Source of the DNA: a virus
Reading direction: 5' to 3' (one strand)
Virus record (IMG/VR): IMGVR_UViG_3300023184_000331
Location: 1 to 34,220 of that record
Length of the DNA stretch: 34,220 nucleotides
Shown here: positions 1,873-20,072 of the stretch, piece after piece
How positions within the stretch are numbered: position 1 is the first letter of the stretch
Layout of the letters: each line of letters opens with the position of its first letter
The notes under the pieces: generated by a model
Databases searched by the model: none
The model's input: the letters and a program-made list of their open reading frames with translations, nothing else
Told to the model about the DNA's origin: nothing
Position numbers and translations under genes: made by a program

Positions 1873-1901
1873 ATAATACAGGATTTAAAACTAAAAGTCA
1901 A
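1873..1901 (-). promoter_or_regulatory. Sigma70-type promoter for the 166-aa gene
   Basis: On the minus strand a -35 TTGACT (1901-1896) and a -10 TATTAT (1878-1873) are separated by exactly 17 bases. Six bases (AACAAC) separate the -10 from the ATG at 1866. Transcription should therefore start at or within a base of the start codon. The -35 overlaps the 3' end of the methyltransferase-like gene. Confidence 0.7.
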
Positions 1902-2488
1902 GATCTTTTTTTCATAATCACGCCACAATCTGTGGTCCATTCCAGAACTTCATAACCTTGGGACAGCAAGTAAATCACACAAGGTCCACATTTACCAATC
2001 CAACAATCATTAAATTGGTATGTGTCATCAAACATTACCATGGTATTGTCGTGAAACAATGATTGTAATGCTAGTAGTTGTTTCATGTGTTCAATCTGGC
2101 AATTGACATTATTCATCTCAATTCCTTGTCTAGCATACTCAGCGATTTGTTTTTTGGTTATATCGCGGGTGGCAATTTCTCTTATGTCATATGTGTAATC
2201 AAAATTATCCAGATATACCAATGCAATATCTGTGTGCCTGGACGCAAACTCCCGGGCCCATGCACTGCCTGGTTGCACCACAAATTCAACATTGTCAAGG
2301 GTGTCTTGTAATCTAGTTTTAGCGTCATCTGACAAATCAACCGAGATCAATTTGGTTCCATGTTCCTGTGCCAAGTTTGCCAGTATCGTTGTACTACCTT
2401 CAAATCTGTCACTTCCAATCTCGACAAACACACCAGAAGTTTGCTTGGGCATGTGTTTTTTAAGTCGCTCAAAAATCTGTGTGCCCAT
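1898..2488 (-). CDS. Class I SAM methyltransferase-like protein
   Basis: A 196-residue protein if started at 2488, where ATG overlaps the uvsW stop as TAATG; an ATG at 2506 would add six residues. Visible motifs are a glycine-rich SAM-type loop (FVEIGSDRFEGST, residues 21-33), an acidic strand end (ISVDLS, 49-53), YLDNFDYTYD (92-101) and MFDDTYQFND (152-161). The last two resemble the metal-binding DD motifs of TylF/cephalosporin-hydroxylase-like methyltransferases. The same layout appears in the protein at 7741-8376. The C-terminal third is rich in Cys (residues 162, 167, 170, 188). The substrate is unknown; a link to the glycan cassette is possible but unproven. Confidence 0.6.
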   Translation of the reverse strand: MGTQIFERLKKHMPKQTSGVFVEIGSDRFEGSTTILANLAQEHGTKLISVDLSDDAKTRLQDTLDNVEFVVQPGSAWAREFASRHTDIALVYLDNFDYTYDIREIATRDITKKQIAEYARQGIEMNNVNCQIEHMKQLLALQSLFHDNTMVMFDDTYQFNDCWIGKCGPCVIYLLSQGYEVLEWTTDCGVIMKKRS

Positions 2489-3957
2489 TATGCTATCTTC
2501 ATCCATTCCAGTTTTTCTGCTGAGAATGGATAGTTGGCTTCTTTATAGAACTGTTTGCGTTTGGTCAAGTGTCGTTTGGCAAACTTACAGGTACTGGTTA
2601 TGTCCCAAATTTGCACATGATCTTTGTCTTCTGCTTTTCTTATGCCGCGGCCAATACTTTGGATAACACGGACAAAACTTTTGCCGGGTTCAATAAGAAC
2701 CAAATTAAAAATCCTAGGGATATTAATACCCACAGCGGCAACACCATAGGTAGCCACAATAATCTTATCAGTGCTGTCTGCAACTTCATCATATTCATCT
2801 TGACGGTCTTTTGCTTTGGTCGCTCCGCTCACAAACACCGCACGATCACCCAAGCGTTCTACTAGAGCATGCCCTGCGGCTACCCGGTCTACAAGCACCA
2901 GTGTGTTGCCTGTTTCATTTACCTTGCGGATTAATTCGGCCATGGTATCCAATCGGCCCGACTCTTCAAGCAAGTATTTAAGTTCTGATTGGTACTCTTT
3001 ATACTCCACGTGATCCACCAACTGCACAATGTTCACGTGACAGTTGGCCAATACACCTTGCTGTTGCAGTTCATTGGCACTGAGACGCCCAATTACAGGA
3101 CCCAGTCCTACTAGTAATGCTTGGCTCTCGAACTTCTCTTTGGGTATGGTTCCAGTCAAACCCCAGCGAATTGGCACTCTAGCCATTACACCTGTCAGCA
3201 GGGTTTTGAGTGCATCTGCCTTGGCCATGTGTACTTCGTCTACAATAACACATACCACACCTTCCAAGAACTCGCCAATGGTTACTTCGCCTGTGCCGGC
3301 TTTGGTGTTCTTTAACAAGACATTCAAACTTTGCCAGGTGCAAATGGTATGTGTGCGTCCATATTCTTTTCTATCGCCAAAGAACACACCTACATCTTGC
3401 TCCATGTTGATGTAGTCTTTTTCTGTTTGTGTTACCAAACTCTTGTTGGGCACAATAACGATTGAGCGTCCATATGGTGTGACTGCATTTGACAACGCCG
3501 CTGTCATTATGGTTTTACCAGCACCTGTGGCAACTTCTTGTAGGCATTGAGGGTTGGCCAGGAAGTTGTTTACAATGTCAACTTGATAGTCCCGCATGAT
3601 GATGGGTTCACCAACAGCAGGGTGTCCTTTGGGCCACTTGATATGTGCAAAAGAGTCTTCACGCACTTGTTCAAACGCAAATGTGGTTGAGTATTCGCGT
3701 TGATCATCTAGTTCAATATCATAATCAAATTTTTCTAATATGGGAATGATCTCGGGCAGTAAGTTTGTGTAAGTGCTACCGCCCAGTTGAAAGTAACTGA
3801 CCTTGCCATCCCAGCGTCCTAGTCTAACTGCGGGCAGGTAACGGGCATAGGGCACATCATATTTGAAAGCATTAACCAAGGCCTTGCGCACATCCAAATC
3901 CAGGCCCTCCAACTTGATGTTGACTTCGTCCTTAATTTGTATTGTGCATCTTTTCAT
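2488..3957 (-). CDS. uvsW: UvsW-type superfamily 2 RNA-DNA/DNA helicase
   Basis: A 489-residue protein, close to T4 UvsW (503 aa). Helicase motifs are clear: motif I ATGAGKT (143-149), motif II DEVH (240-243), motif III-like LTGT (about 267-270) and motif VI QSIGRGIR (433-440). The N-terminal 120 residues fit the UvsW substrate-binding domain (LPAVRLGRWDGK). In T4 UvsW unwinds branched DNA and R-loops and helps switch from origin- to recombination-dependent replication. The start at 3957 makes an ATGA overlap with the gene upstream; an in-frame ATG at 3981 would overlap it by 28 bases and is less likely. UvsX, UvsY and gp32 elsewhere in the window complete the recombination set. Confidence 0.92.
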   Translation of the reverse strand: MKRCTIQIKDEVNIKLEGLDLDVRKALVNAFKYDVPYARYLPAVRLGRWDGKVSYFQLGGSTYTNLLPEIIPILEKFDYDIELDDQREYSTTFAFEQVREDSFAHIKWPKGHPAVGEPIIMRDYQVDIVNNFLANPQCLQEVATGAGKTIMTAALSNAVTPYGRSIVIVPNKSLVTQTEKDYINMEQDVGVFFGDRKEYGRTHTICTWQSLNVLLKNTKAGTGEVTIGEFLEGVVCVIVDEVHMAKADALKTLLTGVMARVPIRWGLTGTIPKEKFESQALLVGLGPVIGRLSANELQQQGVLANCHVNIVQLVDHVEYKEYQSELKYLLEESGRLDTMAELIRKVNETGNTLVLVDRVAAGHALVERLGDRAVFVSGATKAKDRQDEYDEVADSTDKIIVATYGVAAVGINIPRIFNLVLIEPGKSFVRVIQSIGRGIRKAEDKDHVQIWDITSTCKFAKRHLTKRKQFYKEANYPFSAEKLEWMKIA

Positions 3958-5301: not shown

Positions 5302-6324
5302 TTAGGCACTCTTCATACAAGTTGTTTCTGCCAGGCGTTTCCAGTTCAACACTGACATCTTGCGCAAGTCTGCAATTTTCAGCGCCATACGCAGGCTCAA
5401 TTCACGCAAACGGTCCTTGTTTGTCAGCATAAAGTCAATGATGTCGTCTTGAACAGCCTCATCAAACTCGTAGTCTTGGAACAAGACACCGTCTTTGGCA
5501 ATCTGTTTGATACGCAACAATTTGTCACGTTGTGAATCCAGTGTAAGGTCTAGATAGTGACAGCGTGATTGCAATGCGTCCAAGTGATCACGCAATTTTT
5601 GCGATTTCATTTGATCAAACTTAAGGTTGGTAATAAAGATTACCGAGCCTTTGAATTCGAATCGATCTGGAATGCCTTCACGACGCAGGGCACTACTTTC
5701 GCTCAACCAGGAAATAGTGCGTTTCTTGCCCGAGTCCAATGCACCTTTCAGCAAGTTAAGAGCAACATCATCTAGCAAAATGCTATCACAGTCGTCAAAT
5801 ACAATGACACAATTTGAATCGGAGTACTTGTAAAGTGTTTGGAACAAGCCGATTGGGGTAGCCGAACCTTTTACAACTTCGGCACGTAGACGCTTGCCTG
5901 CCAGTTTGTCAAACAAACATGCCTTTTCAATCTCAGTTTCAACGCCAAAACTCTTGCCCACACCCGGAGGGCCTGACACAATCATTGCACGGATGTCACC
6001 GCTCACAGTGGCCTTGGTCATTTCTGTAAGAATGTCAAAACGCTCACGTATGCGATTCATTGCGTCCTCGTCAGATTCTGTCACAAGAACTGATTTTTCA
6101 AAATGCACTGTATTGTCTTTTGTCATGCCGTTAGTATACTCTATATCTGAAGGGTTGTCAACTGTAATACGGATTGTAGGGGCAAAGCCGGGAAACTGTC
6201 CTTCATTTTGGACTGTGACGTACCCACCTTTTTTACCAGTTTGAAATCCTTTTACAAGAGTAAAAGAAACATCTTGCACGGGTTGGTTGCGATACACACC
6301 ACGTAAAACTCGAATTGCACTCAT
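5302..6324 (-). CDS. AAA+ ATPase
   Basis: A 340-residue protein with a clear P-loop GPPGVGKS (118-125), Walker B VIVFDDCD (173-180), and sensor-1 ITN (231-233). About 100 N-terminal residues form a separate, beta-rich domain. It lacks the clamp-loader signature (VEKYRP) and a zinc site, so it is not gp44. The ATPase module resembles those found as solitary AAA proteins in T4-like marine phages; the target is not known. It has a strong ribosome site (AAGGAG, six-base spacer) and its own near-consensus promoter. It heads a unit with the 30-, 57- and 33-aa ORFs, ending at the terminator at 4851-4884. Confidence 0.8.
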   Translation of the reverse strand: MSAIRVLRGVYRNQPVQDVSFTLVKGFQTGKKGGYVTVQNEGQFPGFAPTIRITVDNPSDIEYTNGMTKDNTVHFEKSVLVTESDEDAMNRIRERFDILTEMTKATVSGDIRAMIVSGPPGVGKSFGVETEIEKACLFDKLAGKRLRAEVVKGSATPIGLFQTLYKYSDSNCVIVFDDCDSILLDDVALNLLKGALDSGKKRTISWLSESSALRREGIPDRFEFKGSVIFITNLKFDQMKSQKLRDHLDALQSRCHYLDLTLDSQRDKLLRIKQIAKDGVLFQDYEFDEAVQDDIIDFMLTNKDRLRELSLRMALKIADLRKMSVLNWKRLAETTCMKSA

Positions 6325-6370: not shown

Positions 6371-6421
6371 ATTATAGCAAATGACCATTTAATGGTCAAG
6401 TACTACAAAAGTATTACTTTT
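6371..6421 (-). promoter_or_regulatory. Strong early-type promoter with upstream box (AAA ATPase)
   Basis: On the minus strand: -35 TTGACC (6399-6394), 17-base spacer, -10 TATAAT (6376-6371) preceded by TTTGC. A 22-base box (6421-6400) abuts the -35; it contains AAAAGTAATACTTTT, which is a palindrome around one base, and a second GTAGTAC 11 bases on. The same box precedes the promoters at 6662-6712 and 6966-7016. The stop codon of the 73-aa gene lies in the box. Confidence 0.85.
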
Positions 6422-6635
6422 GTGTGATTTCATCAACTTTTTGCTCATATTCCAAGCGACTCAGTACTACTTGATACATGCAATATATCAAAAATGTAAT
6501 ACTTCCTATTGCAAGTAGATTAGTCAATTCTTTTGCAGTTAAAGTTGCAAACAAAAGTTGTATACCAACTGCAATGGTGGAAGTTACAACAAGAATGCCT
6601 GCTGTCTGTAATGCGGCTTTGAGTTTTAGATTCAT
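6414..6635 (-). CDS. Small two-span membrane protein, 73 aa
   Basis: The protein has two hydrophobic segments, about residues 12-31 (TAGILVVTSTIAVGIQLLF) and 40-60 (LLAIGSITFLIYCMYQVVL), joined by a short polar loop, and a charged C-terminus (SRLEYEQKVDEITQK). An inner-membrane location is likely. It is a single-gene unit with its own strong promoter and a ribosome site AAAGGA four bases before the ATG. Early, highly expressed small membrane proteins of phages often alter host envelope functions or exclude other phages; nothing in the sequence proves this here. Confidence 0.75.
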   Translation of the reverse strand: MNLKLKAALQTAGILVVTSTIAVGIQLLFATLTAKELTNLLAIGSITFLIYCMYQVVLSRLEYEQKVDEITQK

Positions 6636-6965: not shown

Positions 6966-7016
6966 ATTATAGCAAAATGGAAATTATTGGTCAAGTACTA
7001 CTCTAGTACTACTTTT
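6966..7016 (-). promoter_or_regulatory. Strong early-type promoter with upstream box (76-aa gene)
   Basis: On the minus strand: -35 TTGACC (6994-6989), 17-base spacer, -10 TATAAT (6971-6966) preceded by TTTTGC. The upstream box (7016-6995) carries two copies of GTAGTAC, 11 bases apart. The stop of the glycosyltransferase gene falls right at the outer edge of the box. Confidence 0.87.
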
Positions 7017-7741
7017 TATTGCCACAGTTGTTGCACTAAAGGGTCGTGTACATCTGCGGGTTTTGGGTTGCCGTGGAACACTACCACACTGGTGTCAGGC
7101 TTGATTTTTACCCCGGTACCTGGTTTGAGATGTTTTCTTTTTGCAAAATCATATCCACCATCAAGACACTGCCAACGAAAACTTTCAAAACGAAAGTCAT
7201 CTGCAAATCGTCGTTGATTTACATTTAGCATCGCCCCCAAGTAGTCTTGATCTCCGGGATAACTTTTGATTGTGGCTTTGAAATCTGCTTGCGAAAACCG
7301 ATCCCATATCCAACCGAATCGATCAACATTGAACCACATCATGCTGGAATTCATTGTGACTGTATCTCTGCGTTGTAGGTATCTGAAGTCTCTAATGGTC
7401 CAAAGATAGTCTGTGCTGAGTTCACGCACCCAGTCAAGTTGATTTGCAATCACAACATCTAGATCAAAATATAACATATTACCCGCAAAGTATTCGGGAT
7501 TGAACAACTGCATTTTGTACCACCAAGATCGCTTGGGTCCGCTTATGCCCCAGTCTTCTAGGATGTGTTTGACCATGTGTGGTGGTACTGATCTATCATG
7601 TTCTGTATAAACATGCAAGCGTACCTCTGCTGTTAAATGGCGACACAACATATTGTACAAGTGTTCTACATACCGCCAGTCATAGCCTGATCCATGGATC
7701 ACACAGGCACAGTCAATGCGTCCAGGATTCTTTTTTGACAT
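7016..7741 (-). CDS. GT-A fold glycosyltransferase
   Basis: A 241-residue protein. The metal-binding DxD is D93-L-D95 in NMLYFDLDVVI, and the following N-terminal GT-A layout (RLHVYTEHD, WWYKMQLF) fits GT8/GT32-like enzymes that use nucleotide sugars. PGDQDYLGAML and the closing VVVFHGNPKP (His near the C-terminus) are also typical of this group. It starts as TAATG overlap with the methyltransferase upstream and is the last gene of a three-gene minus-strand unit. Sugar and acceptor are unknown. It probably works with the other glycan-cassette enzymes. Confidence 0.78.
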   Translation of the reverse strand: MSKKNPGRIDCACVIHGSGYDWRYVEHLYNMLCRHLTAEVRLHVYTEHDRSVPPHMVKHILEDWGISGPKRSWWYKMQLFNPEYFAGNMLYFDLDVVIANQLDWVRELSTDYLWTIRDFRYLQRRDTVTMNSSMMWFNVDRFGWIWDRFSQADFKATIKSYPGDQDYLGAMLNVNQRRFADDFRFESFRWQCLDGGYDFAKRKHLKPGTGVKIKPDTSVVVFHGNPKPADVHDPLVQQLWQ

Positions 7742-8376
7742 TAGAATTGAAAGATAATTTGATATTCGTCGTAAATGGGCAAATGGCCTTGACCGTACAA
7801 ATAGTCAACTATACGACTGCCTTTTCCGGTTCGTCGATTGTTGTTGACCCAGCGCGAGTTGTCGTCAATTGCTACCACACAACCCGGACGAATGTTGGGT
7901 TGTACTGTTAAGAATTCATTTAAATGATGCTGGGCACTGGCCGTGTCATCGTTCCAATCAACATCGTAACTGTCCAGATAAAACAAGTCCACTTGATCCA
8001 AGTCAGTTTGCTGTTGTAGCCAAGCCACGCTGTCACTAAGTGCAACCGAAAAGTTTGTGCTTGCAATGCTATTACGTGCGGCTTCACAAGCCTGACTGTC
8101 TATGTCTACACTACGCATTTGGCCGCCGTACAAGTCCACAAACTCTGTGAACAATCTAGCACTTTGTCCATCCATCCAGTTACCCGGTGTTCTCAGTGTG
8201 CCTGTTTCCACAATGTTGAAATTGCTTTGTTTTTGATTCAACAACAATCTAAAAATGATGTCAAAGCCCACAGCACGATTGTACATGCCGTCCACAAGAA
8301 CCCCTTGTGTTCCGTCAAACCGAATGTTCAACAAAGGGTAATAGATTCGTCTGTAATGGTCAAGCCAGGTATTCAT
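7741..8376 (-). CDS. SAM-dependent methyltransferase-like protein
   Basis: A 211-residue protein. Motifs are NIVETGTLRTPGNW (54-67, SAM loop), RSVDID (88-93, acidic residue binding the SAM ribose), DLFYLDSYDVDW (130-141) and VVAIDDNSRW (167-176). The order and the DD pair match TylF/macrocin O-methyltransferase or cephalosporin-hydroxylase-like folds, and parallel the protein at 1898-2488. Start and stop both overlap neighbours (ATGA at 8373-8376, TAATG at 7741). A sugar O-methyltransferase role is inferred from the flanking transferases. Confidence 0.68.
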   Translation of the reverse strand: MNTWLDHYRRIYYPLLNIRFDGTQGVLVDGMYNRAVGFDIIFRLLLNQKQSNFNIVETGTLRTPGNWMDGQSARLFTEFVDLYGGQMRSVDIDSQACEAARNSIASTNFSVALSDSVAWLQQQTDLDQVDLFYLDSYDVDWNDDTASAQHHLNEFLTVQPNIRPGCVVAIDDNSRWVNNNRRTGKGSRIVDYLYGQGHLPIYDEYQIIFQF

Positions 8377-9227
8377 GTGTTTGTTTCCAGTGCTGGTGCC
8401 AGTCTACTTATCCATGTGCCTCGACGCAGTTCATCTAAAGTGTACTCTGTGTGACAAACTTGTACCAACCAAGTGTCTCGATCTCGAGTGTAAGGTTGTT
8501 CAATTTCCCCAAAACTCATGCCCACAGGATATGCCAGACTACTTGGTGCTACCACAGGACGCACTCCGGCTATGGCCGCTTGTATTCCCGGGCCTGAATT
8601 GTAGTTTACTAGGGCATGACAGTCATAATGCATATCAAAACTGTCATAAGTGTTGGGCACTCGGTTGGGTGTTTCTATAGTGACGCCTGCAGGTAAATTG
8701 TCAAATGCCATTCGACAACGTGGATGTGGGCGCACGGTGACGGGACGATCTGTTGAATTCCGGAGTATTTGTAGTGTGCTGTGCAACCAGTCCGACATGT
8801 TCAAGCCAGACACTTGTAAACTGCGATCGTGTTGCAAGGCCACAATGATGTTGGGTTGAGAGTTGAATTGTGTGGCCAAACTGATTTTTAATTTCCGGGG
8901 TCGATCCCAATCCAAATTGACATGGTTTCCGTAGTAGCCGTCTGCTGTGATATTGTTCACAGCAATCTTCCAGGTGTCGCCACGATACAATGCCCCAATT
9001 TCAATTATGATCACTGGCCGACCTTGAGATCTATAATGTTCATATACTGCTTGATTGGCTGCCATCCGACCTGCCCACAATACACTCCAAATGACGGCGG
9101 CATCCGAAGTCATTGAGTTTTCTTGTGTTTGAATGCCACGGGCCTGTAAACAGTCTAGTACTGCACTCATGACTGGTTTGGAATTTTTTGCACATTGTAA
9201 AGGAAAATAGGCTATGTTTTTGATCAT
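8373..9227 (-). CDS. GT-B-like glycan transferase, family X member 1
   Basis: A 284-residue protein, one of four related proteins in the cassette. It has RPHP (166-169) and the NYNSGPGIQAAIAG segment (208-221), the RPHP...NS...A..G pattern of GT-B enzymes related to capsule and CDP-glycerol transferases (KpsC/KpsS-type). The N-terminal half has AVIWSVLWAGRM and PVIIIEIGALYRGDTWKI. It begins 12 bases from the divergent gene at 9240 and its stop overlaps the methyltransferase downstream as ATGA. No obvious ribosome site or promoter of either class is visible in the short gap. Confidence 0.65.
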   Translation of the reverse strand: MIKNIAYFPLQCAKNSKPVMSAVLDCLQARGIQTQENSMTSDAAVIWSVLWAGRMAANQAVYEHYRSQGRPVIIIEIGALYRGDTWKIAVNNITADGYYGNHVNLDWDRPRKLKISLATQFNSQPNIIVALQHDRSLQVSGLNMSDWLHSTLQILRNSTDRPVTVRPHPRCRMAFDNLPAGVTIETPNRVPNTYDSFDMHYDCHALVNYNSGPGIQAAIAGVRPVVAPSSLAYPVGMSFGEIEQPYTRDRDTWLVQVCHTEYTLDELRRGTWISRLAPALETNT

Positions 9228-9239
9228 AAGTAATTTTTA

Positions 9240-10040
9240 ATGAAGTACACTGTAATTACCACGTTTAACGAGTCGGGCTATAAACAATATGGCCAACGCA
9301 TGATTCAAACTTTCTTGCAAACATGGCCTGCTGAAGTCACCCTTGTGGTGTATGCAGAAGACTGTGCCATTGAGGAAACTGCACCTAATCTTGTGGTGCA
9401 TGATATTGGCATAGCAGATGCACTAACCACATTTAAAACTGCCTGGGCAGGTGTACCACGTGCCAATGGAGATGTCAGTAGCGATCCTGTTCGTAGCAAA
9501 AGAAAAGATTCCGGTAAAGGATTCAAGTGGGACGCTGTGCGTTTTGCTCACAAAGTCTACTCAATATTCCACTGTGCCAGAAGTATCTCAACTGATTGGT
9601 TAATATGGATGGATGCGGATACTGTGTGCCACAGCACTATTACTCTGGCAGACCTAGACCGCTTGTGTCCCCCAGATCGAGACCTGTGCTTTCTGGGACG
9701 GCAAGGCAAATACTCAGAATGTGGCTTGTATGCTATGAATCTCACAAGACCCAGTATAAAAACTTTCTTGCAAAAGTTTCAACGCATGTACGACGATGCT
9801 GAACAGGGAATATTTACACTCAAAGAGTGGCACGATAGTTATGTGTTTGATGATGTACGAAAACAATGTAATCTTGTTGAACTAGATTGGTCTGCACATT
9901 TGATCACAGGTGAAGGCCATCCGCTAATTAACTCGGAATGGGGTGCATACTTGGATCACCTTAAAGGTGCCAGAAAAGATCAGGGACGTAGCAAGCGAGA
10001 GGATCTAAAAGTTCCGCGTACAGAAGCGTATTGGCAATGA
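9240..10040 (+). CDS. GT-A type glycosyltransferase, first gene of plus-strand cassette
   Basis: A 266-residue protein. The DxD motif is D125-A-D127 in WLIWMDADTVC. The N-terminus (KYTVITTFNESGYKQYG) is the first strand and loop of a nucleotide-sugar-binding fold. A charged insert (SDPVRSKRKDSGKG, about 81-94) is unusual. It is the first gene of the seven-gene plus-strand block and ends in an ATGA overlap with the next gene. No ribosome site better than TAAG is seen before the ATG. The sugar transferred is unknown. Confidence 0.72.
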   Translation: MKYTVITTFNESGYKQYGQRMIQTFLQTWPAEVTLVVYAEDCAIEETAPNLVVHDIGIADALTTFKTAWAGVPRANGDVSSDPVRSKRKDSGKGFKWDAVRFAHKVYSIFHCARSISTDWLIWMDADTVCHSTITLADLDRLCPPDRDLCFLGRQGKYSECGLYAMNLTRPSIKTFLQKFQRMYDDAEQGIFTLKEWHDSYVFDDVRKQCNLVELDWSAHLITGEGHPLINSEWGAYLDHLKGARKDQGRSKREDLKVPRTEAYWQ

Positions 10041-10840
10041 CTTGGATATTCTTAAACAAAAACAATGCAGACGAGTACATTGAAATGTTTGCTGCCGGAT
10101 CACAAACAGTGCCCACTTGTTTAGAAACATGGTGTTACGAAGACAGTGATGCCCCACTTGTGTTGCGTGGCATCATGAAACACAAGATAATCAAGCGTTG
10201 TTGGGCGGATCAAAGACCGTTTTATTACATGGACTCAGGCTACTTGGGCAATAGACCCAGCATGGCCAATCCCAATGGTTGGAAGTTTTATCACAGGATC
10301 GTACCAAACAATCTACAACATGGTGCTGTGATTGATCGGCCTGCAGATAGACTACAACGATTAAACGTACGGATTAGACCCAGACAGAATCACTGCCGAG
10401 ACATACTCGTAGTCGCTCCTGACGAAAAGCCTTGTACGTTCTACGGTATCACACTAGACGAGTGGTTAAAGACCACAACGGATACTATCCGGCAATATAC
10501 TGATCGTCCCATACGCATGCGAGAACGTCCTGCGTCAAGATGGGATAGAAAAACACAACGACCCGAAGAGTGGTTGAACAATGTGCATGCTATAGTTACA
10601 TTCAATAGCACAGCCGCAACAGAAGCAGTACTAGCCGGCATTCCTACTTTTGTCACAGCACCTGCCAACGCCGCAACACCTGTGAGCAATACAGATTTAA
10701 GAACAATAGAAACACCTTGGTTCCCGGATAGTGACCAGGTATATAAGTGGGCTTGCCACTTGGCGTATGGACAGTTTCATACTACAGAACTGGCCAATGG
10801 TACCGCAGCCGCAATACTCAAGGAGACTCAACATGCGTGA
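10037..10840 (+). CDS. GT-B-like protein, family X member 2 (altered RPHP)
   Basis: A 267-residue protein; ATG at 10037 overlaps the preceding stop as ATGA. It shares with the 15013-16014 protein the block VLRGI, YYMDSGYLGN (63-72), YHRI..N..Q and RP.DRL..LNVR. The NS-motif region (FNSTAATEAVLAGIP, 189-203) is intact but the RPHP position reads RERP (162-165), so the usual histidine is lost. The C-terminal IETPWFPDSDQVYKWACHLAYGQF also matches the 15013-16014 protein. It may be a transferase with a changed active site, or a binding partner. Confidence 0.65.
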   Translation: MTWIFLNKNNADEYIEMFAAGSQTVPTCLETWCYEDSDAPLVLRGIMKHKIIKRCWADQRPFYYMDSGYLGNRPSMANPNGWKFYHRIVPNNLQHGAVIDRPADRLQRLNVRIRPRQNHCRDILVVAPDEKPCTFYGITLDEWLKTTTDTIRQYTDRPIRMRERPASRWDRKTQRPEEWLNNVHAIVTFNSTAATEAVLAGIPTFVTAPANAATPVSNTDLRTIETPWFPDSDQVYKWACHLAYGQFHTTELANGTAAAILKETQHA

Positions 10841-11483
10841 ACATTATGGATGGCAATTTCCTGACTTTGAAACACACTTGCCACGGATGATAAAGAAAAG
10901 TGTGGACAAAGGCTTGCCACCTGAATATCAAATTGCTGTACGACGTCGCAGTATTGAGTTATGTAAAAAACGAGATGTAGCATTGGACATTGGTGCCAAT
11001 GTAGGTTTATGGAGCCGTGATCTTGTGAAAAGTTTTGGCCGTGTGATAGCATTTGAACCTGTTGGTATATTTAGAGAATGTTTGGAACGTAATGTAACAG
11101 GAGATAACTTTGAAGTGCGCCCTATTGCACTAGGCGATCAGGATACCCAGGGCACCATGATCATTACCGAAGACAACTCTGGACACAGCCATCTTGATCC
11201 TGCCACTATGGGCACTGGTGATGTACAAGTTGTTCGTCTTGATAATCTAAACTTTCACGACATAAGTTATATCAAAATCGACTGCGAAGGCTATGAATAT
11301 CGCATACTGCAAGGTGCCGAACAAACAATTCGACGTTGTAGACCCGTTGTGGTAATAGAGCAAAAACCACATGATGCTTACAGCAAACAATACGGACAGT
11401 TTGCGGCTGTTGGATTACTGGAAGATTGGGGCATGATCCGACTGGATCAAGTGCGTGATGATTGGATCATGGGATGGCAATAG
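10833..11483 (+). CDS. FkbM-family methyltransferase
   Basis: A 216-residue protein. The ATG at 10833 has a strong AAGGAG and overlaps the preceding stop by eight bases. Motifs: LDIGANVG (51-58), the SAM-binding loop; AFEPV (73-77); and YIKIDCEGYEYRILQGAE (146-163), the FkbM signature. FkbM enzymes are O-methyltransferases acting on sugars or other small hydroxyl compounds. In this setting methylation of a glycan is the natural guess. It is the third gene of the plus-strand block. Confidence 0.85.
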   Translation: MREHYGWQFPDFETHLPRMIKKSVDKGLPPEYQIAVRRRSIELCKKRDVALDIGANVGLWSRDLVKSFGRVIAFEPVGIFRECLERNVTGDNFEVRPIALGDQDTQGTMIITEDNSGHSHLDPATMGTGDVQVVRLDNLNFHDISYIKIDCEGYEYRILQGAEQTIRRCRPVVVIEQKPHDAYSKQYGQFAAVGLLEDWGMIRLDQVRDDWIMGWQ

Positions 11484-12220
11484 GCGATTCTAAATTTATC
11501 AGTGTGTTACTACCCACAAGAAAAAGAACAAAATCTGTTGAAAAAAGTGTTCGAAGTTTGCTCGATCTTGCAACAGATCCCACAAGGATTCAAATTGCTA
11601 TTGCATATGATAATGATGATTTCGAAAGTCACAAATATTTCACTGGCAGTGAGTGGAAAGCATTTATAGAATCTTATGGTGCAGGACACGGTGTTTTTGA
11701 ATGTGAACCATGGGGTTACGAATACCTTGAGAAATATTATAATTTGATGGCTGTACATACATCTAGTGATTGGTTGTTAGTATGGAATGATGATGTTGTT
11801 ATGCTTTCCCAAGGATGGGACCAGGCGCTCTGGGAGATTAAAGATTTTATTGGAATGGTTCATATGGACTGTAATACAAAAATTAGATGGCCAGTCCCAG
11901 GATCAACATTATTCCCAATTGTTCCTCGTGCCTGGGTTGATTTTTTTGGTTGCATAACAGGAGGACCTTGTTTAGATTCTTGGATCGCTGAAATTTGTCA
12001 TAGTGCGGGTACTGCAAAAAGTATTAATGCTAACGTATTTCATGATCGTGCAGACGTTGCTGGAAACAACAATGACGAGACATATCAAGACACCAAAAGA
12101 CTCAGGGTAACAAATAAAAAAGTTTACAAAAGTGATGTAATGAAGCAACTGCGAGATGAATGGACCCAACGATGGATTAAATATTCAGATGAAAACAAAA
12201 ATAATCACACTAAAAAATAA
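11474..12220 (+). CDS. GT2-like glycosyltransferase, A+T-rich
   Basis: A 248-residue protein starting at the ATG at 11474, which overlaps the FkbM stop by ten bases. The GT-A features are VLLPTRKRTKSVEKS (11-25), IAIAYDNDDF (41-50) and WLLVWNDDVVML (100-111), where NDD replaces the usual DxD. GPCLDSWIAEICHSAG and the HDRADVAGNNNDETYQ tail resemble phage-encoded glycosyltransferases. The gene is clearly richer in A+T than its flanking cassette genes (11581-11640 has 17 G/C in 60 bases by hand count), with AAA and ATT codons common, which suggests separate acquisition. It overlaps the next gene by 32 bases. Confidence 0.7.
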   Translation: MAIGDSKFISVLLPTRKRTKSVEKSVRSLLDLATDPTRIQIAIAYDNDDFESHKYFTGSEWKAFIESYGAGHGVFECEPWGYEYLEKYYNLMAVHTSSDWLLVWNDDVVMLSQGWDQALWEIKDFIGMVHMDCNTKIRWPVPGSTLFPIVPRAWVDFFGCITGGPCLDSWIAEICHSAGTAKSINANVFHDRADVAGNNNDETYQDTKRLRVTNKKVYKSDVMKQLRDEWTQRWIKYSDENKNNHTKK

Positions 12221-12881
12221 TGCGCTGTCTGAGAGAGTATCTAAAGATTGCATCGAGCAGGCTACAAAGTTTGGGATGTCTGTTGAGGTATTTGACGCTG
12301 TAAACGGGTTTGATGCAGCCGGGCATCTAGAATTATTAGATATAAAACCGTTGGGAAAATTTAAAAAAGGTAGAGTTGGAGTAGTTGGGTGTTTGCTAAG
12401 TCATTACTATTTGTGGCTGGATTGTATCAAAGACAATGTTCCGTATGTTATCCTGGAGCATGATGGTTATTTCGTTAGGCCATTACCAGAAAATATTTTA
12501 GATTTGTTTGATGATATTATCAAATTGGATGCTGGTAATCCTTACAAAGATTCTTACGAGCAGTGGTTAGTTGAACACGAAAATGACAGTCCATCAACTT
12601 GGACTATCAACGACTATGAAGGCGGTGGAGGGAATCACGAAACTGGTGCTGGATGGAATACTATAGGAGCTTATGCTTACATTATTAAACCACATGCGGC
12701 AGAAAAAATAGTAGCATGGGTTAAACAGAATGGTTTTCTCCCAACTGATCATTTGTTAGGCACAAAAATTATAAACATAACTCACTACAAACCCACCATT
12801 GCAAGATTACATCCATATTATGCAATAGATGGCAACATCAAAAAGATGTCGACCACAATGAATTTGGAAAAAATGTTATGA
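12189..12881 (+). CDS. Glycosyltransferase family 25-like protein, A+T-rich
   Basis: A 230-residue protein. The start at 12189 (MKTKIITLKN) begins at the family's first strand; an earlier frame start at 12156 would add residues with no family look. GT25 (LPS/procollagen galactosyltransferase-like) features are FDAVNGFDA (35-43), GVVGCLLSHYYLW (64-76), where the S-H pair is typical, and VILEHDGYF (87-95) in place of the usual ILEDD. NTIGAYAYIIKPHAAEKI also fits the family. Codon use is A+T-rich like the preceding gene (12481-12540 has 16 G/C in 60 bases). It likely adds a hexose to a lipopolysaccharide-like acceptor. Confidence 0.75.
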   Translation: MKTKIITLKNNALSERVSKDCIEQATKFGMSVEVFDAVNGFDAAGHLELLDIKPLGKFKKGRVGVVGCLLSHYYLWLDCIKDNVPYVILEHDGYFVRPLPENILDLFDDIIKLDAGNPYKDSYEQWLVEHENDSPSTWTINDYEGGGGNHETGAGWNTIGAYAYIIKPHAAEKIVAWVKQNGFLPTDHLLGTKIINITHYKPTIARLHPYYAIDGNIKKMSTTMNLEKML

Positions 12882-13549
12882 GTCCGTACTATTTAGAATC
12901 AGTTAGGTTAGGCCGTGAGTTCCAAGAAAGCAACAAAGCCTGGGCAGGATACGATGTTGTAAAATATCAAAAAAAGATCAAAGAATTGGTAGATCACTAC
13001 AGTGCCCGGACCATACTAGACTACGGTTGCGGCAAGGGACTGCAATACCAAGAACGACTACCGTATGGCGGCAGCATCGGGCATGAATTGCCAGAATCTG
13101 AGTGGAAAACATTTGACGAGTATCTGGGTGTGACTGTGTACAAGTATGATCCTTGTGTGGCAGGCTTTGAGCAACTGCCTCCTGAGGGTACTAAGTTTGA
13201 TGGTGTTATTTGTACACAGGTGTTGAACAGTATACCCGATGATGACATGGTCTGGGTGCGTGAAACATTAGAAAAATATGCCATAAAGTTTTGCTTCATT
13301 GGTCTAAATTTCCAACGAGAAGCCAAAGAGAAAAAGACCATGTATGATTCCAAGTTTTTTCGAGAGCCTCGCACTAGAGAGTTCTTTCGCAGTTATTATC
13401 AAGATTGGTCAGGCAGTGATCTATTCTGGTGGTGGAAAGATCGTGGACACTATCCCGAATGGATAAACGATCAACTTAACGGAACTTGGACAGATGTTCC
13501 TAGCGTATGGACTGGCAAGTACAAATATGTAGAGGTAAACCACAGATGA
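12878..13549 (+). CDS. SAM-dependent methyltransferase
   Basis: A 223-residue protein starting in an ATGA overlap with the GT25-like gene. The SAM loop ILDYGCGKG lies at residues 46-54. FDGVICTQVLNSIPDDD is the motif that follows the adenine-binding strand. The C-terminal part is unusually rich in Trp and Phe (SGSDLFWWWKDRGHYPEW). Base composition returns to that of the rest of the cassette. A second, smaller methyltransferase follows directly, overlapping by four bases. Confidence 0.72.
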   Translation: MSPYYLESVRLGREFQESNKAWAGYDVVKYQKKIKELVDHYSARTILDYGCGKGLQYQERLPYGGSIGHELPESEWKTFDEYLGVTVYKYDPCVAGFEQLPPEGTKFDGVICTQVLNSIPDDDMVWVRETLEKYAIKFCFIGLNFQREAKEKKTMYDSKFFREPRTREFFRSYYQDWSGSDLFWWWKDRGHYPEWINDQLNGTWTDVPSVWTGKYKYVEVNHR

Positions 13550-14103
13550 TTATAGATCCCAAATATCAAGAGCAGTTGGCTACCATGCACAAACAAGGGA
13601 AATTTACCCACGGTAGTAAAGTTATTAAAAAAGTAAGGCCTTTTTTAAATCAATATAATCCCACCAGCGTATTAGATTTTGGCTGTGGACACGGTGCGTT
13701 GATGGCTAGTATACAACAGGCCTATCCTGACATGCGAGTAGAAGGCTACGATCCCGGTAATCCTGCACACCATCGTATGCCCAAACGTTCATTTGATGTT
13801 GTGGTCAGTGCTGATGTGCTTGAACATATTGAACCCAATCACTTGGCAGAAACATTACGTATGATCAGTGACAAAATAATTGTTGCAGGTTGGTTTAGAA
13901 TTGCTTGTTATCCTGCAAAAAAACATTTACCAGATGGTCGCAACGCTCATTTAATTGTGGAGTCACCAGACTGGTGGCGAGAACAACTGCTGGACAACAT
14001 GGATATTACCATTGCGTCAGAAGTGATCTCTGTGTTTGACAAAAGCCACACGTGGCCCGACGTTGTGGGCCACAACTATGATGTTGTGGTAGAAGCCAAG
14101 TAA
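13546..14103 (+). CDS. SAM-dependent methyltransferase, class I
   Basis: A 185-residue protein. The ATG at 13546 overlaps the previous stop as ATGA and follows AGAGGT; an earlier in-frame start at 13507 would lie deep inside the upstream gene. The SAM loop VLDFGCGHG is at 42-50, with EGYDPG as the acidic strand end and FDVVVSADVLEHIE the following motif. It is the last gene of the plus-strand block. Its final 28 bases overlap, tail to tail, the end of the minus-strand gene at 14076-15020, with no terminator between. Confidence 0.76.
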   Translation: MIIDPKYQEQLATMHKQGKFTHGSKVIKKVRPFLNQYNPTSVLDFGCGHGALMASIQQAYPDMRVEGYDPGNPAHHRMPKRSFDVVVSADVLEHIEPNHLAETLRMISDKIIVAGWFRIACYPAKKHLPDGRNAHLIVESPDWWREQLLDNMDITIASEVISVFDKSHTWPDVVGHNYDVVVEAK

Positions 14104-15020
14104 GGCTGAAACTTTTGCCAGATGCGTCCTGCCTGTGCATCTGCATCCGACCAGTGTGCGGCAGCCAAATCATATAGCCATTGCTCTCGTGTAAATATTG
14201 CGGGTGATTCAATTTGAGCAATATCTTGATTGGCCACTGCCCATGCCACGCAACTCACATCATCCGCAAACACAGGTATTCCAGCACACACAGCCGCCAC
14301 ACTTGCACTGCTGTTAAAGAACACCGCGGCATGAGCACCATTTAAGTTGTCTGCTAATTGAGTGTTTACAGGGTCTGCGACTATAATGCTGGTGATTTCA
14401 TTATTTTGTCTTTTGTACCACTTGTGAAAATCATCTGGTCTATAATCTCCTGGATGAGGACGTATTATGATCTGGCGTTGAGTATGTTGTCGAATTTGTC
14501 GAATTTTTCCATTAAGCCATTCCATAGGATCTAATGCTTTCATAGAAAAGCCGCCGTCACGTTGCATACAAATCAAGATATGTCCTTGAGGATTTGATCG
14601 TGGTGGTTGTAATTCAATGTGTAGTGCCTGGCGGATTTCGTCCCACTTGCTCGAGTCGCTGTTATGATTAGCATATTCAGCACGGTCGTAGAACGGTCCA
14701 TTCAAACTGTAGCGTAGATATCTACTGCCGTCGTCTGTGTACTTCCAGCAACTGGCATCAATACACATGGTATCGAGTCCACGTCTACGCTGTTCTGCTA
14801 TGATTTCTTTGCGTAAGGCAATGTTACGCCCGCCTGTGTTGGTAGTTGCCCAGCCCAACATTACCGCTAATCGACCGGGCGTGTAAACATAATCATGCTC
14901 TACCCGCACCAGTCCTCCAGAACTAGCAACACCTGTGGCAAAACTTTCAAGACATTGAGTTTTGCGTGTGTGCTTTTTTACATTGGCCACACTGGAAACG
15001 TAAACAACACAATCAAGCAT
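14076..15020 (-). CDS. GT-B-like glycan transferase, family X member 3
   Basis: A 314-residue protein with RPHP (187-190, IIIRPHPGD) and FFNSSASVAAVCAGIP (234-249), the paired motifs of GT-B capsule/teichoic-type transferases. LNGPFYDRAEY and WLNGKIRQIRQHTQRQ resemble the same region in the other members. It starts inside the end of the upstream gene (8-base overlap) and ends overlapping the plus-strand methyltransferase. This is one of two members, with the one at 8373-9227, that keep the RPHP histidine, so it is likely the active type. Confidence 0.68.
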   Translation of the reverse strand: MLDCVVYVSSVANVKKHTRKTQCLESFATGVASSGGLVRVEHDYVYTPGRLAVMLGWATTNTGGRNIALRKEIIAEQRRRGLDTMCIDASCWKYTDDGSRYLRYSLNGPFYDRAEYANHNSDSSKWDEIRQALHIELQPPRSNPQGHILICMQRDGGFSMKALDPMEWLNGKIRQIRQHTQRQIIIRPHPGDYRPDDFHKWYKRQNNEITSIIVADPVNTQLADNLNGAHAAVFFNSSASVAAVCAGIPVFADDVSCVAWAVANQDIAQIESPAIFTREQWLYDLAAAHWSDADAQAGRIWQKFQPYLASTTTS

Positions 15021-16014
15021 TGTTTAATATGCGCCAGGCAGTACCATCACGCATTTCCACTTCTGTAAATTGACAGTATGCCATGTGTCGTGCCCAGGCT
15101 TCCACTTCGTCTATGCTGGGAATACGTGGGTTTTCTATTTCACTAAGACTTTGACTGCACAAAGGTGCCGCGGCATTGGGACCTAGTGTGATAGCAGGTT
15201 TGCCGTGTAACAGTGCTTCACCAGCGGCAATGCTGGAGAATGTGACCAAGCAATGTACATCACGATCCAGCGCCATTTCCATGGTGTCATTGTTAACTCT
15301 GGTACTGCGGCCTTGTTTGGTTCTTACGATAACAGGTCTGTCAGAGTACTTTTTGATTTCTTCTTGTACATTAGTCAACCAATCTTCTAAAATAATATCA
15401 TAGTTGTTCAACAGTTTTTGACTAGGGGGTGCAATAAGAATATTTGTGCCTCGACGCATTTTCTTTGGTCTGACATTGGTTTTTTCCAGTCTATCCCAGG
15501 GACGTTCTACAATGTCTCCAAACCATTGTACATCGTTTCGGGTAATGCGGTGGAATGTTTTTCTTTTACCATTGCCAAAGTAACCGGTGTCTATGTAGAA
15601 GAAATCTCTCCCGGCTGCTCGACATGCTTCCATTTGTTTGCGTTTGGTAATACCACGCAACACAACAGGACCTGTTGTGAATTCTTCTCGGGCCCAGGTA
15701 CTGATTTGTCCCCCAGCACCTTGTACAAAACTTCGTAGTACAGGATCGTACATGTGTCCTTTTCTTTCGTATCTGTATTCGCTGTCTGTACTTACTATGT
15801 TGTTAACAGGCAATGCCGCCAGTTGTTCACTCAATGTTTGAAGTGTAATACCGTAAGTAGATCCTGCTGGGTCCACACGATACTTCAATATGTTATCAAA
15901 TATTTCTCGTATTTCTGGCACTACCTGATCTAACACATGCGGTTCAGGTGGCGCAGGGGGTTCTAGCACTGGAGGCGGAATATAAGATGACTCGTCTTCC
16001 TGTTCCCAAATCAT
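15013..16014 (-). CDS. GT-B-like protein, family X member 4 (altered RPHP, proline-rich N-terminus)
   Basis: A 333-residue protein. The ATG at 16014 overlaps the upstream stop as ATGA, and AGAGG lies eight bases before it; an earlier ATG at 16065 would overlap by 55 bases. Residues 11-25 are a proline-rich linker (YIPPPVLEPPAPPEP) not seen in the others. The shared block FYIDTGYFGN (139-148) and the RP.DRL segment match the 10037-10840 protein. The RPHP site reads RTKQ (231-234) and the NS motif reads FSSIAAGEALLHGKP (259-273). The histidine is therefore missing here as well. Confidence 0.66.
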   Translation of the reverse strand: MIWEQEDESSYIPPPVLEPPAPPEPHVLDQVVPEIREIFDNILKYRVDPAGSTYGITLQTLSEQLAALPVNNIVSTDSEYRYERKGHMYDPVLRSFVQGAGGQISTWAREEFTTGPVVLRGITKRKQMEACRAAGRDFFYIDTGYFGNGKRKTFHRITRNDVQWFGDIVERPWDRLEKTNVRPKKMRRGTNILIAPPSQKLLNNYDIILEDWLTNVQEEIKKYSDRPVIVRTKQGRSTRVNNDTMEMALDRDVHCLVTFSSIAAGEALLHGKPAITLGPNAAAPLCSQSLSEIENPRIPSIDEVEAWARHMAYCQFTEVEMRDGTAWRILNNA

Positions 16015-16700
16015 TCTATCAACCTCTGCTGGCAATATTCTGTCAATATACGCTCTCGATGCCATTCGTCCGCCATGGGAGTATCAGCAAACTCATGAAA
16101 GCATGGAGTGCCCAAGGTATAGTGCAAGAGCTTGGCCGCGGGGTTTGGCCCGTATTCATCGGGCAACCAATTCCATTCTGGAGGTAACTCGCCTATGCGG
16201 TCATCATCTAACCACGTGAAGCGGTGGAGTTCACTACCTGTGGCCTGTTGTATAAATCCAGGCATGAGTTTACGATTGGGAAAACTGTTGCAGTTCCATA
16301 GTATCACACTGGACCAGTTTTTTCTAGGATAGTCTTCGTTTGGTGATCCAAGATATTTCACAGGCATTCGAGTCTTGTAATCATGTTTGACCACTTGTAC
16401 ATCTTTACTCATGTCTCTCAGTGCCCAAAGTTCTGCAATGTCGCCACGCACAATCATGTCGCCATCTATAAAGATAGCAGATCCTGTAAATCCCATCAGG
16501 TACGGTACTAAAAATCTTGTGTAGATAAAGTGATTGCTACCGTCAGTGTGCGTTTCATTGTAGTCCTTGAACAAGTTAAGTGCTACTGGTACTATACTTA
16601 CAGGCTTGCTGGCATGTCTAATAATGCTGTTGACACAGGTGTGATAGGCTATGGCTTCACGCGGATCATAGCCGATGAAGATTGGTATAATGTCTTTCAT
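16011..16700 (-). CDS. GT8-like glycosyltransferase
   Basis: A 229-residue protein. N-terminal PIFIGYDPREAIAYHTCVNS (6-25) and the D79-G-D81 in AIFIDGDMIV mark a GT-A retaining enzyme of the GT8 type. YPRKNWSSVILWNC and the closing LLHYTLGTPCFHEF supply the later family motifs, including the histidine after the second strand block. It overlaps the cupin gene (ATGA) and the family X gene downstream. In function it probably transfers a hexose from UDP- or GDP-sugar to a glycan. Confidence 0.8.
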   Translation of the reverse strand: MKDIIPIFIGYDPREAIAYHTCVNSIIRHASKPVSIVPVALNLFKDYNETHTDGSNHFIYTRFLVPYLMGFTGSAIFIDGDMIVRGDIAELWALRDMSKDVQVVKHDYKTRMPVKYLGSPNEDYPRKNWSSVILWNCNSFPNRKLMPGFIQQATGSELHRFTWLDDDRIGELPPEWNWLPDEYGPNPAAKLLHYTLGTPCFHEFADTPMADEWHRERILTEYCQQRLIE

Positions 16701-17035
16701 CGGCGTTCTATGTCCTCTTCAACACAATTCTCACCGTACTGTATTTCAATCAGTTTCAGCGGTTGATCCGTTTCGTTGCACAACATGTGCCATTGATTTT
16801 TACCGATACAAATGTATTCATGCACACCATATGTACCCACTAAGTCATGATCGCTTGAACTGTCTAAGGTGTAGACTGCGGCTTCACCTTCGGCTACAAA
16901 CCAAAATTCTGCACGTTGATCATGGCGTTGCATACTCAAACAGGTTTTGGGCATGACCGTTAGTTCTTTGAGTTTGGTATGTGTGCCTACTTCGTGCAAC
17001 ACATGATAATATCCCCAAGGGCGTTGTGTTTTCAT
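16697..17035 (-). CDS. Cupin of the type II mannose-6-phosphate isomerase type
   Basis: A 112-residue single cupin. The start at 17035 (MKTQRPWGYYHVL) is the family N-terminus; an in-frame start at 17140 would run into uvsY. The first cupin motif, LSMQRHDQRAEFWFVAEG (33-50), keeps Q36, H38 and E43, but the common H after E is F here. The second has QWH (His83). ManC/type II isomerase C-terminal domains interconvert mannose-6-P and fructose-6-P. It may supply the cassette with a mannose precursor, or act only as a sugar-binding cupin. A TAAATA element lies five bases before the ATG. Confidence 0.75.
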   Translation of the reverse strand: MKTQRPWGYYHVLHEVGTHTKLKELTVMPKTCLSMQRHDQRAEFWFVAEGEAAVYTLDSSSDHDLVGTYGVHEYICIGKNQWHMLCNETDQPLKLIEIQYGENCVEEDIERR

Positions 17036-17040
17036 GCAGG

Positions 17041-17047
17041 TATTTAC
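17041..17047 (-). promoter_or_regulatory. T4-late-like -10 element (GTAAATA) before the cupin gene
   Basis: The minus-strand heptamer matches the TAAATA core of T4-type late promoters. Its TAA is also the stop codon of uvsY, and only five bases separate it from the cupin ATG at 17035. If used, it would start a nearly leaderless message for the glycan genes. Confidence 0.45.
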
Positions 17048-17496
17048 ACCTGGATGTCTTCCATCCCAGCAGTTCTTAGTCGCACCACGTGCCCCATTTG
17101 CCACTGCTTGGTATCTAGTCCTTTGAGTATGCCTAACCAACGATTGCGTAGGTATGCTACTTCGTTTATGAGAGTTTCGTAATCAATAACTTCATCTTCA
17201 CCGTCCACGTACTTTTCAGCATCTCTACTTGTGAGAGCACGGGCATAACCTTCTAGATATTTTTGGAAATGTTTCCTACGTATCTTACGTAACTGTATGT
17301 TGAGGTAGTTTAGTACTGCTTCAATCTCTTGCAGTTGGTTATATCTAAACTCAGTTATGCCGGGCAAGGCCGTGATATTCTTTTCTACTAGGCCTGAGAT
17401 CTTGCAGTCCTTTTTGGCATCTTCAAGTTCACGCTCGTAGTGAGCGATAAAGTCTGGAATTGCACCTAAGCTGGCAACTACGCGGCTATACCACAT
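17044..17496 (-). CDS. uvsY: UvsY-like recombination mediator
   Basis: A 150-residue protein, near T4 UvsY (137 aa). The C-terminal half (SRDAEKYVDGEDEVIDYE, then LINEVAYLRNRWLGILKGL and MGHVVRLRTAGMED) matches the form of UvsY in T4-like marine phages as I remember it. UvsY loads UvsX recombinase on gp32-covered single strands. Position supports it: it follows uvsX and a small acidic gene in one overlapping unit (TAATG start at 17496), with gp32 upstream. The protein is helical and strongly charged. Confidence 0.82.
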   Translation of the reverse strand: MWYSRVVASLGAIPDFIAHYERELEDAKKDCKISGLVEKNITALPGITEFRYNQLQEIEAVLNYLNIQLRKIRRKHFQKYLEGYARALTSRDAEKYVDGEDEVIDYETLINEVAYLRNRWLGILKGLDTKQWQMGHVVRLRTAGMEDIQV

Positions 17497-19887: not shown

Positions 19888-20072
19888 ATTGTGTTGCCTT
19901 TCTATGCGTTAATATGATTTTAAAATTTAAGTCTTGCTTAAATGCTGCCTACAAGGTTATTTTAACACAGCCTGTCTGTGTAGTCCTACCTTTACGGTAA
20001 GGAATTTTGCCTAACTAGTTGTTTACGGAAGTGTGCGCTACTACGCACACTTCTTTCATGTGTTTATTTATA
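19888..20072 (-). promoter_or_regulatory. Structured 5' leader of gp32
   Basis: The longest gene-free stretch in the window (185 bases). On the minus strand it holds a 10-bp hairpin (20028-20037 with 20044-20053, loop 6) without a T-tract, a 6-bp stem CTTACC/GGTAGG with one G-U pair (about 19985-20001), and an ACACAG/CTGTGT hairpin (19965-19970 with 19976-19981). AAAGG lies before the ATG. T4 gp32 represses its own translation through a 5' pseudoknot; these stems are candidates for a similar control. No sigma70 promoter is evident. Confidence 0.5.
20065..20072 (-). promoter_or_regulatory. T4-late-like promoter element TATAAATA before the gp32 leader
   Basis: The minus-strand octamer is an exact match to the T4 late -10 consensus. 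It lies directly after the 740-aa gene and about 180 bases upstream of the gp32 ATG, so it would give gp32 a long structured leader. Confidence 0.6.

Follow-up and report, generated by a model that had tools for sequence, protein, structure and literature searches.

Gene Organization of the Locus

The window analyzed here is the whole 34,220-base virus record IMGVR_UViG_3300023184_000331, which is classed as a linear fragment and derives from a large uncultured freshwater virus of bacteria that is T4-like. Between positions 7016 and 17035 it carries 14 genes, all with open reading frames, which encode five glycosyltransferases (GTs) of the GT-A type, four paralogous transferases of the GT-B type, four methyltransferases and one cupin. 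Profile searches against Pfam and PHROGs bore out, with small corrections, the inventory of a preliminary description of the sequence (GT8, GT2-like and GT25-like transferases, FkbM, a cupin); where that description counted FkbM and three or more other methyltransferase-like enzymes, FkbM and three others were found. With its contiguous glycosyltransferases and modifying enzymes, and with homologs in the Pelagibacter phage Mosig, the locus is by predicted gene function a phage-encoded glycan synthesis cluster.

Relatives were gathered from IMG/VR by two independent recruitments, one with UvsY and one with the GT-B family, which together gave 157 loci. Gene presence was scored in 34 distinct contigs spanning the interval from UvsY to the phrog_1250 ATPase, a sample partly selected through the GT-B family, and the fractions given below refer to these contigs. 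The left end of the locus, on the minus strand, consists of a constant GT-A-type glycosyltransferase gene (7016–7741; phrog_1962, 1e-20; 33/34), a variable methyltransferase gene (7741–8376; Methyltransf_24, PF13578, 1.1e-5; phrog_24975, 1e-40; 3/34) and the gene for the constant GT-B-like paralog a (8373–9227; 33/34), which was assigned by AlphaFold modeling and a Foldseek fold match. The 7016 transferase is a distant relative (~25% identity, 3e-9) of PmgQ of phage P1, which is annotated with a putative morphogenetic function. A further methyltransferase-like gene, related to the 7741 gene via phrog_24975, is located outside the locus (1898–2506, minus strand).

The plus-strand block starts with a transferase containing a DAD motif (9240–10040; 30/34), which is a weak GT2 member by sequence (PF00535, 0.016) and whose AlphaFold model (pLDDT 92.6) matches GT-A enzymes (E 4e-8), with GT6 and glycogenin-type enzymes among the structural matches. 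It is followed by GT-B-like paralog b (10031–10840; 28/34) and an FkbM-family methyltransferase (10830–11483; PF05050, 4e-19; TIGR01444, 4.6e-26, above the cut-off; 27/34), whose likely start is the ATG at 10830, the mechanical open reading frame (ORF) beginning at 10731. The next gene, 11462–12220, is highly variable (1/34, with one homolog also in the contig G001 described below) and encodes a probable GT2-like transferase, recognized by inspection of its LPTRKR and NDD motifs; it matched no family in Pfam or PHROGs. The block is completed by a variable GT25 glycosyltransferase (12156–12881; PF01755, 2.7e-12; 11/34) and two methyltransferases dependent on S-adenosylmethionine (SAM). The first (12878–13549; 15/34) matches phrog_24759 (2.5e-11), with Pfam methyltransferase models under the cut-off; the second (13507–14103; PF13489, 5e-12; phrog_24759 group; 23/34) is a homolog of gp130 of Caulobacter phage CcrColossus (41% identity, 2e-21).

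On the right, again on the minus strand, are GT-B-like paralogs c (14076–15020; 33/34) and d (15013–16065; 29/34), a constant GT8 glycosyltransferase (16011–16700; PF01501, 2e-7; phrog_28018, 5e-39; 33/34) and a mannose-6-phosphate-isomerase-type cupin (16697–17035; PF01050, 1.2e-20; 29/34). The locus is bordered by uvsY on the right (17044–17496, minus strand; phrog_231, 1.5e-13) and by the ATPase gene on the left (5302–6324, minus strand; phrog_1250, 6e-82), and the relatives have the same two border genes.

Source Phage

In addition to the UvsY-like protein and the ATPase, which were recognized by profile, the T4-like set of the window includes a large terminase, tail tube proteins and, identified from their sequences, a UvsW-type helicase, UvsX and gp32-like proteins. 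No integrase was seen in the window, which carries T4-like replication genes. The terminase shares no more than ~51% identity with its counterpart in any annotated phage, and a megablast search of the locus against annotated phages gave no match. The related 331,654-base contig G001 shares its gene order with the window over the stretch between the tail tube genes and the gene at 628, showing 95% identity in UvsX and 83% in the terminase; therefore, the window is probably a piece of a phage of similar size (332 kb). Two genes near the terminase gene lie apart from the glycan locus. One (23892–25022, minus strand), overlapping the start of the terminase gene, encodes a Twitch-domain radical SAM protein (NF033640, 7.5e-62, over the cut-off), to which more than 12 further ORFs of G001 are homologous; homology was used here because a count of CxxxC motifs found too few radical SAM proteins. 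The other (25132–25947, minus strand) encodes a DNA/RNA non-specific endonuclease (PF01223, 2e-37; 80% identity to the G001 copy) with an N-terminus resembling a signal peptide, and an exported nuclease would be odd for a phage.

The GT-B Family

The preliminary description had counted four GT-B-like proteins of an RPHP/NS type. The four proteins (8373, 10031, 14076 and 15013) are indeed members of one paralogous family, with 23–27% identity to the first, and the RPHP motif is kept only in 8373 and 14076, being replaced by RERP in 10031 and by RTKQ in 15013. The AlphaFold model of paralog a (pLDDT 92.7) was searched with Foldseek, and the best 24 PDB matches were all transferases of 3-deoxy-D-manno-octulosonic acid (Kdo), including WbbB (3.8e-9), KpsC (4.8e-7) and KrkA. 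The quality of these fold matches is modest, with TM-scores of 0.38–0.52 to the query and E values from 3.8e-9 to 1e-4.

At the sequence level, the family gave no significant Pfam match (only the weak DUF6716 match of paralog b, 3.6e-4). The Pfam model Capsule_synth (PF05159) reached at best 12.3 bits, in one of eight relatives, against a cut-off of 20, and PDB sequence profile searches with three constant families, the GT-B family included, returned no matches. A tblastn search gave a single weak match for paralog a and none for paralog c. Two weak bacterial Capsule_synth matches, gathered as KpsC relatives, were unrelated to the phage GT-B family, and the link to Kdo transferases therefore rests on fold only. 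The bacterial cytidine-monophosphate-Kdo (CMP-Kdo) transferases WbbB (GT99), KpsC (GT107) and KrkA resemble the phage family in the GT-B fold and in an HP-type motif, which is found in two of the four phage paralogs, but differ from it in the lack of significant sequence similarity and in the low TM-scores. Thus, according to the structural model, the family is Kdo-transferase-like in fold without being a member of the CMP-Kdo transferases, and its donor is putative.

In a further relative (G003), a single 554-residue protein combines GT8 with paralog d (L207:1324–2988, minus strand), a fusion that ties these two activities together. A bacterial origin of the GT-B family was considered and rejected: the GTDB matches of paralog a are misbinned phage contigs or short pieces of the locus, as other locus genes are present on all of the longer ones and UvsW or UvsY homologs on most. 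Large phage contigs of this kind (L199–L203), one of them 335 kb, are binned as genomes of Neomarinimicrobiota, Verrucomicrobia, Pelagibacter and Rickettsiales; all hold a marine version of the locus, and most hold UvsW or UvsY homologs.

The Cupin and Its Lost Partner Domain

In most relatives, the cupin makes up the C-terminal half of a ~250-residue protein whose N-terminal half is a nucleotidyltransferase with an HxGH motif. The best models for this half are rfaE domain II (1.7e-22, under the cut-off) and a cytidylyl/adenylyltransferase domain (over the cut-off), and its relatives in the PDB include ethanolamine-phosphate and glycerol-3-phosphate cytidylyltransferases. Compared with the relative L008, the window has a clean 417-bp in-frame gap that removes the nucleotidyltransferase half. 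A split cupin gene was suspected and rejected in favor of this precise loss, and the comparison identifies the window cupin as the remnant of a nucleotidyltransferase–cupin fusion. Both halves are absent from L111, L087 and L051.

Elsewhere in its genome, G001 carries an HldE/HldD-like set (PfkB and epimerase families, with the nucleotidyltransferase read from sequence) and a GalE-like epimerase, and because of these genes heptose-type donors are possible for the locus. The 195–243 kb region of G001 (L177–L180) also contains genes for DegT aminotransferases, GTP cyclohydrolase I and radical SAM proteins.

Methylation and the SAM Cycle

Four relatives (L093, L134, L143 and L154) contain within the locus a gene of the same cluster (cluster 15), and in L134 this gene encodes a complete S-adenosylmethionine synthetase. 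The neighboring gene in L154 encodes an S-adenosylhomocysteinase (TIGR00936, 595 bits against a cut-off of 498), and a homologous gene is present in L143. Since the methyl donor would be supplied and the inhibitory by-product removed next to several methyltransferases, these predicted SAM-cycle genes give good support to heavy methylation, and they strengthen the earlier proposal of a phage-encoded pathway for a methylated glycan, which is well supported. Radical SAM proteins are also encoded inside the locus of L105 and L096.

Position, Variability and Selection

In nearly all relatives the site of the locus is constant, after uvsY and before the phrog_1250 ATPase gene and uvsW. Homologs of the set lie at the identical position in 33 of the 34 distinct complete relatives, and the same number carry GT8, GT-B paralogs a and c, and the 7016 transferase. 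As this sample was partly chosen by the GT-B family, a fairer count comes from the loci recruited with UvsY that have at least 3.5 kb downstream: the locus is present in 32 of 34 informative cases, of which 26 are window-like and 6 are diverged and in the opposite orientation, and the other two comprise one different arrangement and one (L045) without the locus. At the near-empty site of L045 (2590–3611), ~1 kb separates the UvsY and ATPase genes and contains one 183-residue ORF and a homolog of a small window gene (6414–6635). Across the 34 contigs, the ends of the locus are constant and the center is variable.

The locus is under purifying selection. In 12 of the 14 genes, synonymous divergence is much greater than non-synonymous divergence (for the other two, 11462 and 12156, no sufficiently close relative was available), and the ratio of non-synonymous to synonymous substitution rates (dN/dS) is 0.04–0.14 in most comparisons. 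Relative to L082, synonymous-site differences amount to 1% in paralog a, 8% in the 7741 gene and 34% in the UvsW and ATPase genes, and this uneven divergence points to recombination within the locus. The locus shows at least one sugar gene cluster of large aquatic phages to be an old, selected, modular unit. These data bear directly on the proposal that the cluster is passenger or "stuffer" DNA with no dedicated function. Large phages do carry many dispensable genes, L045 has no locus and the window has lost the nucleotidyltransferase domain, but the low dN/dS values, the presence of the locus in nearly all UvsY-recruited relatives, the conservation of gene order and of the genes at the ends, and the recurrence of the module in other lineages oppose it. 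The stuffer proposal is already largely refuted by the selection analysis, and we regard it as very improbable.

Just past the left end of the locus are three sigma-70-type promoter-like sites (6399–6371, 6690–6662 and 6994–6966, minus strand), which match at 11–12 of 12 positions, have a TG before each −10 element and precede the ATPase gene and two small genes. The T4 late promoter sequence TATAAATA occurs at just two sites in the window (20065–20072 and 29779–29786, minus strand), possibly by chance, at the ends of the genes 20073–22295 (structural-type, phrog_13484) and 27229–29754/29782–30438.

The location among recombination genes, followed by strong promoter-like sites, could suit a locus that places a methylated glycan on hypermodified phage DNA, comparable to the glucose of T4. 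Such modification is classically known from T4-like phages, and the SAM-cycle genes recruited by some relatives would also be in keeping with it. However, the known hydroxymethyl-DNA handles were not found. Searches for DNA-modification genes covered eight relatives of 96–332 kb, all possibly incomplete, the window being a fragment: a thymidylate-synthase-family enzyme (the family that includes the dCMP and dUMP hydroxymethylases) was found in none of these eight, with positive controls that worked; a TET/JBP oxygenase was found in none of the eight, in a search that gave no positive-control match either; and QueC-type matches were at most weak and partial, in two of the eight. DNA as the acceptor is accordingly thought improbable, although less so than the stuffer proposal.

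Homologous Modules in Other Phages

Parts of the same gene set recur in phages of other lineages. In the cultured Pelagibacter phage Mosig, a single block contains two FkbM genes, GT8 (45% identity), the 9240 transferase (profile 8e-46), two GT-B paralogs (2e-37 and 6e-25), the 7016 transferase (3e-40) and a sulfotransferase, and Mosig-like blocks adjoin nrdB and RuvC in many marine contigs. In CcrColossus, gp127–gp130 form a contiguous module of two GT-B homologs, GT8 and a methyltransferase. It is directly preceded by a large tail protein gene of the same strand and by the small gene gp126, and the endolysin and holin genes follow it; CcrPW and CcrBL1 have the same layout (CcrBL1 by position). 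Podovirus ctDrO704 carries a methyltransferase and GT8 with the major capsid gene on one side and an SU10-type adaptor gene on the other, an arrangement kept in L241, L269 and L290. Podovirus ct7QV12 carries GT9, a 9240-type transferase, a methyltransferase, a GT-B protein and an aminotransferase directly before its terminase and portal genes. Thus, parts of the module stand beside virion genes in three lineages, but not in the clade of the window or in Mosig. We tentatively propose, at somewhat less than an even chance, a transferable virion-glycosylation module that is built on the Kdo-like-fold GT-B family, is shared by unrelated tailed phages (T4-like jumbo phages, pelagimyophages, Caulobacter jumbo siphophages and small podoviruses) and would give polymorphic, methylated particle glycans, with a phage SAM cycle in some.

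Acceptor of the Predicted Glycan

The preliminary description had left three acceptors open: virion fibers or capsid, phage DNA and the host surface. The first is favored here, the known types of DNA modification are unlikely as described above, and the lipooligosaccharide (LOS) or lipopolysaccharide (LPS) of the host is still a rival. According to the latter explanation, the locus remodels the LOS/LPS core of the host while infection proceeds. Cytosolic transferases would attach sugars and methyl groups to the lipid A-core at the inner membrane face, prior to its export by the host, and would thereby bar superinfection or keep progeny from re-adsorbing to debris. Folds of the GT8, GT25 and Kdo-transferase-like types are typical of LOS core synthesis, and the enzyme types of the locus suit that role. 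The HldE/HldD-like set and GalE-like epimerase of G001 fit it as well, and recombinational diversity would fit variable host surfaces. Modification of the host O-chain has also been proposed, without test, for the GT8-rich clusters of pelagimyophages (PMC7029224). However, the core set is common to phages whose hosts (Caulobacter, Pelagibacter and unknown freshwater hosts) should not have the same core sugars; part of the set is kept beside or within virion genes in several lineages; and a slow change of the surface would be of little gain to a lytic phage. Host LOS/LPS is thus a serious candidate that we nevertheless consider rather unlikely.

The explanation we favor is that the locus is an island dedicated to assembling a glycan in a large, lytic phage of the T4-like kind and that the acceptor is most likely a virion protein, a reading to which we give about an even chance. 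It is preferred because of the operon context in other lineages and because the set is common to phages of different hosts. Soluble transferases would build a short oligosaccharide from activated sugars made by the host and, in larger relatives, partly by the phage, with capping or decoration by the four methyltransferases. The attached core would be the work of the constant genes (GT8, the GT-B paralogs, another two GT-A enzymes and, in most cases, FkbM), while the variable central genes would alter the outer sugars and methyl groups through recombination between phages. The acceptor would be a protein of the phage tail, fiber or capsid. We infer a single glycan as the product, and with it the order of transfer, the donor sugars and the acceptor; a Kdo-like acid is the putative donor for the GT-B proteins, and the fused nucleotidyltransferase may supply donors of the nucleoside-diphosphate-heptose or nucleoside-diphosphate-polyol type.

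Several points weigh against a virion acceptor. In the clade of the window and in pelagimyophages, the locus sits among recombination and nucleotide genes and not among virion genes, and the T4-type late promoter was not found near it. The enzyme types are not decisive, because LOS core synthesis also uses soluble GT8, GT25 and Kdo-transferase-like enzymes. The evidence from gene neighborhood is guilt by association, and the lineages with a virion context hold just part of the set. By the literature found, a virion glycan has been measured in no carrier. The remaining probability is assigned to acceptors not considered here, or to more than one acceptor.

The role of the "LPS gene clusters" of large aquatic phages has been a question since at least 2010, and the suggestions include stuffer DNA, host surface change and DNA protection. 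The module is common to cultured phages of Pelagibacter and of a laboratory strain of Caulobacter, in which the acceptor and the sugar would be directly measurable. If virions are coated, abundant phages of fresh water and the sea would have in their polymorphic glycans a neglected feature that affects adsorption, decay and recognition. In the GT-B family, a new source of transferases would be available.

Comparison with Known Systems

The resemblance to O-antigen synthesis suggested by the preliminary description is limited. Unlike a Wzx/Wzy-type O-antigen cluster, the cassette has no initiating sugar-phosphate transferase, flippase or polymerase family among the Pfam matches of its proteins, and no convincing membrane segment was found in these proteins, their most hydropathic stretches fitting buried strands better than a membrane span. 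The locus also differs from the lysogenic gtr cassettes of serotype conversion: neither GtrA/GtrB nor a membrane-bound transferase of that type is among the Pfam and PHROGs matches of the cassette, and the window has T4-like replication genes. It differs from T4-type DNA glucosylation in the missing thymidylate-synthase-family enzyme of the relatives mentioned above.

In mycobacteriophages, virion sugars have been observed on capsid and tail tube subunits (Freeman 2023, as cited in PMC12619734); the likeness lies in phage transferases that would modify the particle, and the set of the window is far larger, with a putative role on the particle. Moraphages, which have four core transferases, form a lineage separate from the T4 families (PMC12619734); identity with the published moraphages was considered, on the basis of their description alone, and is not assumed. 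A literature search, which misses most subscription papers, found no description of the window locus, its fixed site, the SAM-cycle genes or the module shared with Caulobacter phages.

The gene count was earlier called far more than is usual for T4-like phages, which holds against T4 itself but not against cyanophages and pelagiphages, in which large clusters are known (PMC3037559, PMC7029224). The T4-like cyanophages P-SSM2, S-SSM7 and S-SM2 share with the window long runs of sugar genes, and the large LPS gene clusters of P-SSM2 and S-SSM7 were described as of unknown function and possibly "stuffer DNA" (PMC3037559). The cyanophage clusters lie near hli03, phoH and tRNAs, whereas the window locus is fixed between uvsY and uvsW; it is set apart from them by this position, is under purifying selection and is built on an uncharacterized GT-B family. 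Mosig (EXVC030M; PMC7029224) has homologs of FkbM, 9240, GT8, GT-B and 7016 in one block, but differs in its site next to nrdB and RuvC, in having two of the four GT-B paralogs and a sulfotransferase, and in that no GT25 or cupin was found. In CcrColossus, a cultured jumbo siphophage, the likeness is the contiguous run of two GT-B homologs, GT8 and methyltransferase within gp126–gp131, annotated as hypothetical proteins, sugar transferase and methyltransferase, and the difference is a smaller set directly after tail genes. Phage "LPS gene clusters" are thus already known, and the window locus is an unusually well-defined variant of them.

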